Below are positions 37,993 through 43,275 of a stretch of DNA of 64,000 bases, in pieces (the first letter of the stretch is position 1; each line of letters starts with the position of its first letter). The position numbers and the translations under genes were made by a program. This DNA is from Fusobacterium necrogenes (GTDB lineage Bacteria > Fusobacteriota > Fusobacteriia > Fusobacteriales > Fusobacteriaceae), in the NCBI RefSeq assembly GCF_900450765.1, contig NZ_UGGU01000003.1, forward strand, positions 434,001 through 498,000, written 5' to 3'. The notes under the pieces are model-generated. The model made no database searches. It was not told the origin of the DNA and saw only the letters and a program-made list of their open reading frames with translations.

Positions 37993-38787
37993 ATGAATAA
38001 AGCAGAATTAGTTTTAGAAAGTATTAGAACTACGTATAGAAAGAAAATATGGAATAAATTTATAAAAGCAATAAAAGATTTTAATTTGATAGAAGATGGA
38101 GATAGAATAGCAGTAGGAGTATCTGGAGGAAAGGATAGTTTACTTCTCTGTAAGCTTTTTCAAGAGTTAAAAAAAGATAAAAGTAAAAACTTTGAGGTAA
38201 CTTTTATCTCTATGAATCCAGGATTTGAAGCTATAGATATAGAACAGTTTAAAAAGAATCTTGAGGAGCTAGATATCCCTTGTGAAATATTTGATGCTAA
38301 TGTTTGGGAAGTAGCTTTTAGAGAAGATCCAGATGGACCATGTTTTTTATGTGCAAAAATGAGAAGAGGAGTATTATATAACAAAGTAGAAGAGTTAGGA
38401 TATAACAAACTTGCTCTAGGGCACCATTTTGATGATGTAGTAGAAACTACTATGATAAATATGTTTTATGCAGGAACTGTGAAGACAATGATACCAAAAG
38501 TGAGTTCGACAAGCGGTAAAATGTCAATAATTAGACCTCTTGTATATGTTAAGGAAAAAGATATTGTAGCTTATACACAAAGAAATGAGATAAAGGCTAT
38601 GAGTTGTGGGTGTCCTATTGAATCTGGAAAAGTAGACTCTAAAAGAAAAGAGATAAAAAATCTTTTAGCTGAGATAGAAAAAACTAATCCCAATGTAAAG
38701 CAAAGTATATTTAATTCTATGAAAAATATAAATATAGATTATGTAATGGGATATACTAGAGGAAATAAAAATAAAGGAGATATGTAA
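37993..38787 (+). CDS. TtcA-like tRNA thiolase, copy 1
   Basis: Cytoplasmic PP-loop ATPase of 264 residues resembling TtcA, which makes 2-thiocytidine at tRNA position 32. The PP-loop S-G-G-K-D-S is at 44-49. An Fe-S cluster would be held by Cys117 and Cys120 (C-F-L-C) and Cys205 or Cys207 (S-C-G-C-P). A-L-G-H-H-F-D-D-V-V at 141-150 is the conserved second motif. AAGGAGG is well placed. Its stop overlaps the next start by one base (TAATG), and that gene is a paralogue. Which tRNA each copy modifies is unknown. Confidence 0.88.
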   Translation: MNKAELVLESIRTTYRKKIWNKFIKAIKDFNLIEDGDRIAVGVSGGKDSLLLCKLFQELKKDKSKNFEVTFISMNPGFEAIDIEQFKKNLEELDIPCEIFDANVWEVAFREDPDGPCFLCAKMRRGVLYNKVEELGYNKLALGHHFDDVVETTMINMFYAGTVKTMIPKVSSTSGKMSIIRPLVYVKEKDIVAYTQRNEIKAMSCGCPIESGKVDSKRKEIKNLLAEIEKTNPNVKQSIFNSMKNINIDYVMGYTRGNKNKGDM

Positions 38788-39542
38788 TGGAGAAAGAGAA
38801 AAATAACTCTATCTTAAAAAATATTGAGGGAAAAGGATTTGGAAAAACTATCTGGAGTCCAATTGGAAGAGCTATGCACAGATATAATATGGTAGAAGCT
38901 GGAGATAGAATAGCAGTGGGAGTGTCTGGTGGAAAGGATAGTATGACTACTTTAAATGCTCTAGTTAGAGTAAAAAAAATAGCTCAGATAGATTTTGAGA
39001 TTATCCCTATTCATATACACTCTAATACTGATAAAGCTTCTTATGAAAAGATTGAAAAATATTGTGAAGAGTTAGGTTTAAAATTACAGGTAGAGCCTAC
39101 TAATCTAAGTGATATGTTATTTGGAGAAAAAGAGGTAAAAAATCCTTGCTTTCTATGTGGAAGAATAAGAAGAGGGATTCTCTATAGAATGATGAAGGAG
39201 CAAAATATAAATAAGCTTGCTTTAGGACATCATAAAGATGATATAATAGAAACTTTTCTTATGAATGTATTTTATCAAGGAAATATGAAGATGATGAAAC
39301 CTAGTTATATATCTGAAGAGTATGGAGTAAGAGTGATAAGACCTCTTGCCTATGTAGAAGAGGCAGATATCATAAGATATGTAAAGAAACAAGAGCTTCC
39401 AGTGGTAGCTTCAGATTGTCCATATGAAACAAGTGAGAACTCAAAAAGATTGAGAGTAAAAAATCTTATAAGAGAGTTAGCACAGGAAAATAAAGATGTT
39501 AGAAGTGTTGTTTTCAACAGTATAAAAGAGATGTTGGATTAA
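38787..39542 (+). CDS. TtcA-like tRNA thiolase, copy 2
   Basis: Paralogue of the gene before it, 251 residues. The PP-loop S-G-G-K-D-S is at 47-52, C-F-L-C gives Cys121 and Cys124, A-L-G-H-H-K-D-D-I-I is at 145-154, and Cys211 (S-D-C-P) is the third possible Fe-S ligand. All catalytic elements are kept, so neither copy looks decayed. The copies differ strongly outside the motifs, so the duplication is old and they may modify different tRNAs or positions. Translation is probably coupled to copy 1. Confidence 0.88.
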   Translation: MEKEKNNSILKNIEGKGFGKTIWSPIGRAMHRYNMVEAGDRIAVGVSGGKDSMTTLNALVRVKKIAQIDFEIIPIHIHSNTDKASYEKIEKYCEELGLKLQVEPTNLSDMLFGEKEVKNPCFLCGRIRRGILYRMMKEQNINKLALGHHKDDIIETFLMNVFYQGNMKMMKPSYISEEYGVRVIRPLAYVEEADIIRYVKKQELPVVASDCPYETSENSKRLRVKNLIRELAQENKDVRSVVFNSIKEMLD

Positions 39543-39626: not shown

Positions 39627-40304
39627 ATGAACATTCTTGTTATACAAAGAGAAAAAAAACAAGCTGAATATATAGCTAATGGACTGAAAGAATCAGGGTA
39701 TATGGTTAATTTTACTGATAATTTTGATGAAGGATATCATTTTTTAGATTCTATTTCTTATGATTTAGTTATAATAGATACTATTATTTCTGGAAGATCA
39801 GGATTAGATTTTTGTAAAAGTGTAAAAGAAATAAGTGAAGCAACAGGGATAGTGTTTTTAACTTATGAAGCTGATATCAATCTGAAAATAAAAGCTTTTG
39901 ATTGTGGAGGGGATGATTATATTTTAAAACCTTTTACTTTTTTGGAGTTATTAGCTAGAATAAGAGCTATAATTAGAAGAATAAAATTACAAACAAGAAA
40001 ATATACCGAAAATAAACTTGTCATAAGAGATTTGAGTCTTGACTATCTTACTAGAGAAGTATATAGGGCAGAGAGAAAAATTGAATTGACCTCTAAAGAG
40101 TTTACTCTTTTAGAGTATTTTATGAGAAATAGAAATATAGTTCTTACACGTACTATTTTAAAAGAGCAAATTTGGGGGATAGACTTTATATCTGATACTA
40201 ATATTGTTGATGTATATGTAAAATATCTTAGAGATAAGATAGATAAAAATTTTGAAAGAAAATTTTTTTATACCATAAGAGGAGCAGGTTATATTTTAAA
40301 ATGA
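39627..40304 (+). CDS. Orphan OmpR-family response regulator with altered acidic pocket
   Basis: DNA-binding regulator of 225 residues. The receiver domain (1-115) keeps the phosphoacceptor position Asp51 (I-I-D-T), Thr79 and Lys101 (L-K-P-F). The usual acidic pair after the first strand is missing: the sequence reads I-L-V-I-Q-R-E instead of I-L-V-V-D-D-E. This should weaken magnesium binding and phosphorylation. The C-terminal domain (125-225) is a winged helix of the OmpR/PhoB type, with L-T-S-K-E-F-T-L-L and the end G-A-G-Y-I-L. No histidine kinase gene is near. It starts an operon with a lipid-acylation gene. Confidence 0.9.
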   Translation: MNILVIQREKKQAEYIANGLKESGYMVNFTDNFDEGYHFLDSISYDLVIIDTIISGRSGLDFCKSVKEISEATGIVFLTYEADINLKIKAFDCGGDDYILKPFTFLELLARIRAIIRRIKLQTRKYTENKLVIRDLSLDYLTREVYRAERKIELTSKEFTLLEYFMRNRNIVLTRTILKEQIWGIDFISDTNIVDVYVKYLRDKIDKNFERKFFYTIRGAGYILK

Positions 40305-40469: not shown

Positions 40470-40481
40470 ATGGGAGGAAAA

Positions 40482-42968
40482 ATGAGATTTATATATGATA
40501 GGAATAAGACAGCAGTAATTTTTGGGGATAGAGAGTATAGTTACAAGGAGATAATAAAGGGAGTAAAATATTACTCTACACTTTTAAAAGAGAGTGGAAA
40601 AGTAGTAGTAACTATGGAAAATAGACCTGAAATGATATGTTCTATATTTTCTATTTGGGATAAAAAAGAACCAGCAGTAGTTTTGGACTCTGGATATACA
40701 GGAGAGCAATTTGCCTATGCATTTTCAGATTCAGAGCCAAGATATATTTTTACCTCTAAAAAAGTATATGAGAGAGTAAAAGAAGGAGTGGAGTTATCTA
40801 AACAGAATATAGATATAATTATAGTAGATGAGATTGATGTGCCAGAGGATTTTACTTCAGAAAATTATGAAGTAGTGATAGATGATATGGAAAGGGTAGC
40901 ATTATTACTCTATACATCAGGAACAACAGGAAATCCTAAGGGAGTAGTATTAACTTTTAACAATTTAGAATCAAATATCAGAGCTGTAAGAGAAATAGAG
41001 TTAGTAAATGACCAAGATAGAGTTTTAGCTATACTACCTTATCATCATATCTTACCATTGAACTTAACTTTACTTATGCCAATGTATTTTGGAACATTTT
41101 TAGTAATCTTAGAGGAATTATCATCAGAAGCATTAAAATCAGCTTTAAAAAAACATCAAATAAGTGTAATAATTGGGGTGCCAAGAGTATGGGAGATGCT
41201 ACATAAGGCTATAATGGGAAAAATTAATAGTAATTTTGTAGCTAAAAAACTTTTTAATCTTTGTAAAAAAGTAAATAGTTTAGCTCTTAGCAAGAAAGTA
41301 TTTAAAAAAGTAGCTAATGAACTAGGTGGAAATATGAGAGTTCTTGTTTCTGGGGGAGCAAAACTTGATCTAGAGGTTTCTACTAATTTTAAAATTTTAG
41401 GACTTCCTATTATAGAGGGATATGGTCTTACAGAGACATCTCCAATTATAGCCTTCAATCGTCCAAATAATAATGTTATAGGTTCTGCTGGACAACTTAT
41501 TCCAAATATTGAAGTAAAGATAGCTGAAGATGAGGAGATATTAGTAAGAGGAGCCAATGTAATGAAAGGGTATTATAAAAATCCTCAAGCTACCTCTGAA
41601 GCTATTGATAGTGATGGTTGGTTCCACACTGGAGATCTAGGAAAATTTGAAGGGGATTCTCTATTTATAATTGGAAGAAAAAAAGAGATGATAGTTTTAT
41701 CTAATGGTAAAAATATAAATCCTGGGGATATTGAATCAGCTATTTTAAAAGAAACTGACTTAATAAAAGAGATAGCAGTTATGGAGTACAATAATCATTT
41801 GATGGCTGTAGTTTATCCAGATTTTGATTTGATAAAGAGAAGAAAGATAGCTAATATCAAAGAAACTTTAAAATGGGAAATTATAGATAAATATAATGTG
41901 ACTGCTCCTAAATATAGAAAGATATTAGAAGTGAAAATTGTAAAAGATGAGTTACCAAAAACTAAACTTGGAAAAATTAGAAGATTTATGCTTAAAGATT
42001 TTTTAAGAAAATCTATAGAGAATGGAGAGGAAAATATAGAGAAAAAAGAGGTCGTAGTTATACCATCAGATCTAATTTCGCAGTATAGTCAATTGAAAAA
42101 ATATATAGATTCTAATTTTAATGTTAATTTAGAACCAGATTCACACTTAGAGTTAGATTTAGGATTAGATTCTGTAGATATAGTTGAAATTTTATCCTTT
42201 ATAGAGCTAAATTTTGGAGTGAATATAAATGAAGATGAGTTTAGTAATTTGAAAAATATACTTGATATAGCTAGGTTTATCAAAGAAAAGGGAGGAGAAT
42301 ATCATGAAGAAGATATGGATTGGAAAAGTATCTTAAATCAAAATATAGATACTCCTCTTCCAAAGTCTAGTTTTGTATTAAAAATCATAAATATCATTTT
42401 GAAGCCTATATTTAGTTTATATTTTCATTTACATAAAATAGATACAAATAAAATTATTAAGAATCCAGCTTTATATATAGGAAATCATCAAAGTTTCTTA
42501 GATGCTCTTATATTTAGTCAGGCTATTCCTTTGAATAAGTTAAAAGATACTTACTTTATAGCGATAGTTACTCATTTTAATACACCGTTTAGAAGATATT
42601 TAGCGGATAGAGGAAATATAGTAATAATAGATATAAATAAAAATTTGAAAGAAACATTACAAATTTCAGCGAAAATATTAAAAGAAGGTAAAAATTTAGT
42701 TATATTTCCAGAAGGAGCAAGAACAAGAGATGGAGAATTGCAAGAGTTTAAAAGGACATTTGCAATACTTTCTAAAGAGTTAAATATTCCAATAGTACCA
42801 TTTGCTATAAAAGGAGCTTATGAATGTATGCCTTATGGAAGTAGTTTTCCAAAATCTTCTCCTATTGATATCAAATTTTTTGATAAAGTGGAACCTGGAA
42901 ATTTAACTATTGAAGAAATAGTAGAAAAGACTAAGGGTAAGATAAAAAAATGGTTAGTTGAGGAATAG
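40482..42968 (+). CDS. Acyl-ACP synthetase / acyl carrier / PlsC acyltransferase fusion
   Basis: A three-domain enzyme of 828 residues. Residues 1-500 are an ANL adenylation domain with T-S-G-T-T-G-N-P-K-G, G-Y-G-L-T-E-T-S-P and G-W-F-H-T-G-D-L. Residues about 525-605 are a carrier domain with the pantetheine serine in L-G-L-D-S-V-D. Residues about 640-828 are a PlsC acyltransferase with N-H-Q-S-F-L-D and F-P-E-G-A-R-T-R. The carrier between the two suggests that an activated acyl group is passed internally to a lysophospholipid or similar acceptor. E. coli Aas has the two enzymes without this internal carrier. GGAGGA before ATG 40482 rejects an in-frame ATG at 40470. The selenoprotein-like gene follows after 1 nt. 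Confidence 0.9.
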   Translation: MRFIYDRNKTAVIFGDREYSYKEIIKGVKYYSTLLKESGKVVVTMENRPEMICSIFSIWDKKEPAVVLDSGYTGEQFAYAFSDSEPRYIFTSKKVYERVKEGVELSKQNIDIIIVDEIDVPEDFTSENYEVVIDDMERVALLLYTSGTTGNPKGVVLTFNNLESNIRAVREIELVNDQDRVLAILPYHHILPLNLTLLMPMYFGTFLVILEELSSEALKSALKKHQISVIIGVPRVWEMLHKAIMGKINSNFVAKKLFNLCKKVNSLALSKKVFKKVANELGGNMRVLVSGGAKLDLEVSTNFKILGLPIIEGYGLTETSPIIAFNRPNNNVIGSAGQLIPNIEVKIAEDEEILVRGANVMKGYYKNPQATSEAIDSDGWFHTGDLGKFEGDSLFIIGRKKEMIVLSNGKNINPGDIESAILKETDLIKEIAVMEYNNHLMAVVYPDFDLIKRRKIANIKETLKWEIIDKYNVTAPKYRKILEVKIVKDELPKTKLGKIRRFMLKDFLRKSIENGEENIEKKEVVVIPSDLISQYSQLKKYIDSNFNVNLEPDSHLELDLGLDSVDIVEILSFIELNFGVNINEDEFSNLKNILDIARFIKEKGGEYHEEDMDWKSILNQNIDTPLPKSSFVLKIINIILKPIFSLYFHLHKIDTNKIIKNPALYIGNHQSFLDALIFSQAIPLNKLKDTYFIAIVTHFNTPFRRYLADRGNIVIIDINKNLKETLQISAKILKEGKNLVIFPEGARTRDGELQEFKRTFAILSKELNIPIVPFAIKGAYECMPYGSSFPKSSPIDIKFFDKVEPGNLTIEEIVEKTKGKIKKWLVEE

Positions 42969-42969
42969 A

Positions 42970-43275
42970 ATGAATATTGTAATAGAAAATGCTGTATTAA
43001 AATATATTTTTAAAAAAAATTATGAAGGGCTCCTTTTAAAGAGTCGTAACCAATCTTTTGGTTGAGCAGGTTGTAAAAAAGTAATTCTAGTTGAATTTGT
43101 AAAAGAGTATTCACAAGTAATTGAGAATAAATTTAGCTGCAAAAGTTATAAAGTTAAAGGGATAAAAGTGTTTATTCCATATAAGTTAGAGCTAGAAAAA
43201 GTAAAAGAGTTGAAGGTAGTTGAGGTAGTTGATAGCTCTAGTGAAAAGATGTTTTTAGACGTTGAAATTAAATAA
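42970..43275 (+). CDS. Putative small selenoprotein (HesB-like), UGA at codon 32 as selenocysteine
   Basis: ATG 42970 lies 1 nt after the preceding stop, with GAGGA about 5 nt upstream. The frame runs 101 codons to TAA 43273-43275, interrupted only by TGA at 43063-43065. Codon use on both sides is like neighbouring genes. Read through, the protein has S-F-G-U-A-G-C, a U-x-x-C redox-type motif, and later Y-K-V-K-G-I-K-V-F-I, which resembles the central strand of small HesB/IscA-like selenoproteins. Immediately before the TGA, AACCAA (43048-43053) pairs with TTGGTT (43058-43063). I see no convincing canonical bacterial SECIS downstream by eye. It ends with its own terminator. The alternative is a pseudogene with one nonsense mutation. 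Confidence 0.62.

Follow-up and report, generated by a model that had tools for sequence, protein, structure and literature searches.

A gene of Fusobacterium necrogenes with an internal UGA almost certainly encodes a conserved small selenoprotein with an IscA-like predicted fold

In the window, the 64,000-nucleotide stretch of Fusobacterium necrogenes DNA that was analysed, one forward-strand frame (42970-43272) is interrupted only by the TGA at 43063-43065 and is closed by a TAA codon at 43273-43275. Its read-through translation is MNIVIENAVLKYIFKKNYEGLLLKSRNQSFG-U-AGCKKVILVEF... The preliminary description had reported this single frame with its TGA in an SFG-U-AGC context, and both the positions and the translation match exactly; the ribosome binding site that it claimed was also found, as a GAGG in front of the ATG (Table 1). 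It had further credited the gene with its own terminator, which is unconfirmed because no terminator 3' of the gene passes a consensus scan. When the window was searched outside the standard open reading frames for frames carrying one TGA that is preceded by at least 20 and followed by at least 40 codons, this was the only one found.

A single nucleotide separates the ATG from the TAG (42966-42968) that ends the upstream gene, a large fusion gene with which the selenoprotein gene is probably co-transcribed. In several members of the genus the same fusion gene is the immediate upstream neighbour of the Sec gene, and in several the Sec gene is placed between two AMP-ligase–ACP–acyltransferase fusions; the window is without the second. 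Outside the genus the neighbours of the Sec gene are different, and therefore the context points to no one pathway. A function based on genome context was dropped, since the neighbours differ between genera. At 37993-39542 lie two adjoining PP-loop genes that resemble TtcA, neither of which reaches the TtcA equivalog cut-off, and this pair adjoins a response regulator (39627-40304) that is most like copper/heavy-metal regulators.

Table 1. Features of the selenoprotein locus, in positions of the window
Feature	Positions	Strand	Basis or remark
Upstream gene, 832 codons: fusion of AMP-binding ligase, acyl carrier and PlsC-type acyltransferase	40470..42968	+	Pfam PF00501, PF00550, PF01553
Shine-Dalgarno-like GAGG, 6 nt 5' of ATG	42960..42963	+	Read from sequence
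Putative selenoprotein gene, 101 aa, Sec at residue 32	42970..43275 (stop codon included)	+	Translation; orthologues with TGA at same codon
Upstream 6-bp hairpin, probably incidental	43048..43063	+	Pairing not kept in relatives
In-frame UGA, putative Sec codon, F-G-U-A-G-C	43063..43065	+	Same-column TGA in 10 aligned genus members; TGT in same-family relative without tRNA-Sec
Putative bacterial SECIS core hairpin AATTC-TAGTT-GAATT	43083..43097	+	Starts 17 nt past UGA; stem kept in relatives

We searched 12 Fusobacterium genomes, that of the window included, of which 11 are near complete. The gene was present in all 11 near-complete genomes, each time with one internal TGA at the same codon, thus ruling out a lone nonsense mutation in this strain. 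The orthologues were 32-69% identical and the TGA column was the same in all 10 distinct genus sequences; the orthologue of F. mortiferum An814 (L002) also has TGA at this codon. The Sec motif reads (S/N)FGUAGC in nine sequences and GCGUAGP in genome G004. When 98 genomes of the phylum were searched with a profile, UGA forms appeared in three more genera, giving 28 genomes in total, from which 26 distinct sequences were read. Around the fixed Sec the motif varies (UAGC, UVGC, UCAG/UCSG, KUCP), the second Cys lying three residues past Sec in nearly all genus members and at other nearby positions in relatives. Homologues with Cys in place of Sec were found as well (G026, G037, G038 and G041), so that UGA and Cys both occur at this codon; G026, for example, reads KGSKCCPV where its genus-mates read KGSKUCPV. 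It is Cys, not Trp, that occupies the Sec position in homologues. A literature search, covering mostly titles, abstracts and passages, found no paper linking Fusobacterium to this protein, and a plasmid search with the L005 protein gave no match.

The genes selA, selB, selC and selD, by which the preliminary description proposed to judge the reading, are all present in the genome of the window: selD (TIGR00476), selA, selB and yedF were above cut-off, and the sel cluster also holds a Se/S-carrier-like protein (PF11823) and tRNA-Sec (selC). The selD gene of this genome (L051:3373-4374) is a UGA-containing selenoprotein gene itself (GGUASK) and exceeds the TIGR00476 cut-off when read through. 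The tRNA-Sec was found in 28 of the 28 genomes with the UGA form vs 50 of the 98 phylum genomes overall, a count that is inflated by shared ancestry, although its direction is still clear. Three genomes with the Cys form had no tRNA-Sec (G026, which is 82% complete, G037 and G038), and G041-G043 had tRNA-Sec together with stop-free forms of the gene.

A perfect 6-bp hairpin ending on the U of the UGA had also been pointed out, with no obvious SECIS downstream. The hairpin exists, but only three to six of its six pairs form in relatives; it therefore looks incidental and was rejected as the SECIS. Downstream, on the other hand, a conserved stem was found 17 nt past the UGA. All family sequences have a 4-5-pair stem with a 5-nt loop at the same distance from the UGA and with no gaps; all five pairs form in 21 of the 26 sequences, and at least four pairs in every one. 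The second stem pair (column pair 22/34) is A-U in 17, C-G in 7 and G-C in 2 of the 26 sequences and is never broken. In the SECIS alignment 94.9% of cells were paired, a value that none of 500 shuffles reached, and slid versions gave 14-50%. With synonymous-codon resampling, most single sequences did not stand out (p about 0.2 for the greater part of the genus and as low as 0.002 elsewhere), but taken jointly the stem was improbable, the product over eight diverse representatives, which share ancestry, being 7e-11.

The published criteria for a bacterial SECIS are a small-loop stem, a loop 16-37 nt from the UGA, a G within the first two loop positions and an MFE of -7.5 or lower (PMC13188914). 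The distance from UGA to loop is 22-23 nt, inside this range, and the loops of most relatives (AGGGU/AGGUU) agree with the published pattern. The hairpin of the window is AU-rich and weak (-1.2 kcal/mol alone; MFE of 48 nt, -2.7), with a UAGUU loop that does not follow the N-G-(G/U)-N-N pattern kept by most relatives. Its loop and MFE fall outside the strict filter, and a SECIS scanner is therefore expected to miss it; the spacing and the covarying stem hold in 26 sequences. Judged from this alignment, the conserved hairpin with its compensatory changes is most probably the SECIS.

By the mechanism established for bacteria, SelB carrying Sec-tRNA would read the UGA as Sec once the hairpin enters the ribosome, and comparison of the sequences makes us nearly certain that Sec is inserted at this codon. 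The UGA might be read through in some other way, by a near-cognate tRNA or with insertion of Trp or Cys, and the weakness of the window's SECIS would fit this; it is nevertheless very improbable in view of the complete sel machinery, the invariable co-occurrence of the UGA form with tRNA-Sec, the Cys rather than Trp in homologues and the conserved hairpin at a Sec-typical distance.

The codons downstream of the TGA are under purifying selection. The dN/dS ratio 3' of the UGA (Nei-Gojobori) was 0.2-0.6 in eight of nine pairs; the ninth gave 0.8, in a highly diverged pair whose synonymous rate before the UGA was saturated. It is hardly credible that the UGA is an ordinary stop, leaving a 31-residue peptide or a decaying gene: conservation is somewhat higher in the first 31 codons than past the UGA, and standard annotation ends at such codons (in a Cetobacterium somerae record, L119:1636-1791, the post-UGA part of a relative is annotated as a 51-residue 'hypothetical protein', WP_185892780.1), but the TGA is kept in 28 genomes despite flanks that diverge to about 20-40% identity, selection persists past it, and Cys takes its place in homologues. 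By these sequence comparisons, the short gene seemingly broken by a stop is almost certainly a real, conserved selenoprotein.

When the read-through protein of the window was searched against protein families, no NCBIfam model matched and Pfam gave nothing useful. The family did better, with 24 of its 29 members matching NF041239 (CC/Se motif family (seleno)protein; best E 4.5e-9), albeit below the curated cut-off of 40 bits, which no genome of the phylum reached (best relative scanned singly, 32.6 bits; window protein, no match). A clostridial protein from Acetoanaerobium noterae (L118, motif CSRGUAGP) is an accepted NF041239 member with 61.5 bits. It aligned over its full length with the G004 orthologue (L012), not the window protein, with E 8e-9, 30 of 103 residues identical and Sec on Sec, and the Fusobacteriota proteins would therefore be a divergent branch of the CC/Se kind. 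They share with that family a length of about 100 aa and a profile that is collinear over nearly the whole protein, whereas the second Cys follows Sec here (UAGC) and precedes it in the CSRGU of L118. The first prediction of the CC/Se motif family was in Moorella thermoacetica (PMC13188914, Table 1), and the 2026 review, in which 119 selenoprotein families are tabulated, gives its motif as CxxU and ranks proteins of one architecture as separate subfamilies when their Sec motifs differ (PMC13188914); by this rule, UAGC is a separate subfamily. On sequence grounds we call the window protein a divergent, unannotated UAGC subfamily, with NF041239 as the nearest named family. The CC/Se selenoprotein gene of A. 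noterae (L118:2495-2779; UAGP) lies in a 2.6-Mb record labelled as a plasmid, with four listed features.

A resemblance to small HesB-like selenoproteins had been proposed on first inspection. It held at the level of the fold, through structural matches to IscA and SufA, but not as membership of TIGR01911, which was rejected because the profile matched none of the 12 genus genomes. The HesB-like selenoproteins of TIGR01911 have a UxGP motif (PMC13188914); with them the family shares the small A-type carrier kind of protein, and the UAGP of the orthologue L012 fits this motif.

An AlphaFold2 model was built on the 29-member alignment, which contains family members only, and had a pLDDT of 88.3. 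The top Foldseek matches were Escherichia coli IscA (E 1.9e-4) and SufA (E 2.4e-4), with TM about 0.55. VIA-align against IscA gave Z 8.1 and rmsd 3.0 over 87 residues; these Z values are moderate, unrelated folds starting from Z 4.1, and the ten best VIA-align rows were all A-type carriers or HesB-like relatives. At the sequence level the link is weak: PF01521, the family of the A-type Fe-S carriers IscA/SufA/ErpA, was matched weakly by 5 of the 29 family members, members read individually stayed below its Pfam cut-off, and a PDB sequence search with the profile gave chance matches only. A profile alignment with IscA/SufA/ErpA, also weak (probability 3-7%), places G-U-A-G on their G-C-S-G, and thus Sec32 in place of Cys35. 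The model makes it highly probable that the protein has the carrier-like IscA/SufA/HesB fold.

The predicted fold and the G-(U/C)-x-G register with Cys35 are thus shared with the A-type carriers, and Sec32 is predicted to occupy the cluster-binding Cys35 site. The A-type carriers use three cluster-binding cysteines, Cys35 and those of the CGC tail; the selenoprotein would have Sec at the first site, and the tail, invariant in IscA/SufA/ErpA, is absent. Given the missing CGC ligands and the presence of a second Cys near Sec, the most likely role would be that of a small selenol–thiol redox protein, or of a carrier of soft metal, selenium or sulphur, a classical Fe-S carrier being less likely. 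We consider such a role, suggested by a reactive Sec with a Cys close to it in a carrier-like fold, rather probable. It seems unlikely that the protein is a genuine A-type carrier whose Sec selenolate ligates an Fe-S cluster, for instance one shared by the subunits of an oligomer: the modelled IscA fold and the alignment of Sec with Cys35 would agree with this, but the two other IscA ligands are lost with the tail, and the additional Cys close to Sec speaks for a redox pair. The reading as a whole, a 101-residue selenoprotein with UGA as Sec, an IscA-like predicted fold and an inferred redox or carrier role, is in our judgement very likely. More specifically, the selenolate occupying the Cys35 position might coordinate an Fe-S centre or another soft-metal one, or might carry selenium or sulphur, the second Cys having been shifted by lineage (UAGC, CGU, UC). 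This proposal is unlikely; if true, a selenolate A-type carrier with a moving second Cys would offer a natural series for the rebuilding of Sec active sites.

The analysis adds a conserved selenoprotein, found in every near-complete genus genome. Ordinary gene-finding rules would overlook its gene, which annotation will probably split or omit. A further suggestion is that the SECIS elements of AU-rich genomes are too weak to pass the usual energy filter, and selenoproteomes there are therefore probably undercounted. Linking the CC/Se motif family, so far unexplained, with the IscA fold also gives a testable idea of the family's function.

We also noticed that in genome G001 (L052) the ttcA-ttcA-regulator-ligase-selenoprotein cluster has as its immediate upstream neighbour the sel cluster (selD-selA-selB-yedF-Se/S carrier-selC). 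The selA frame of G001 is seemingly split in two (L052:1471-2831), which a sequencing error or frameshift could explain, and the other genes of its sel cluster look intact. In the genome of the window, unlike G001, the sel cluster and the selenoprotein cluster are about 100 kb apart.
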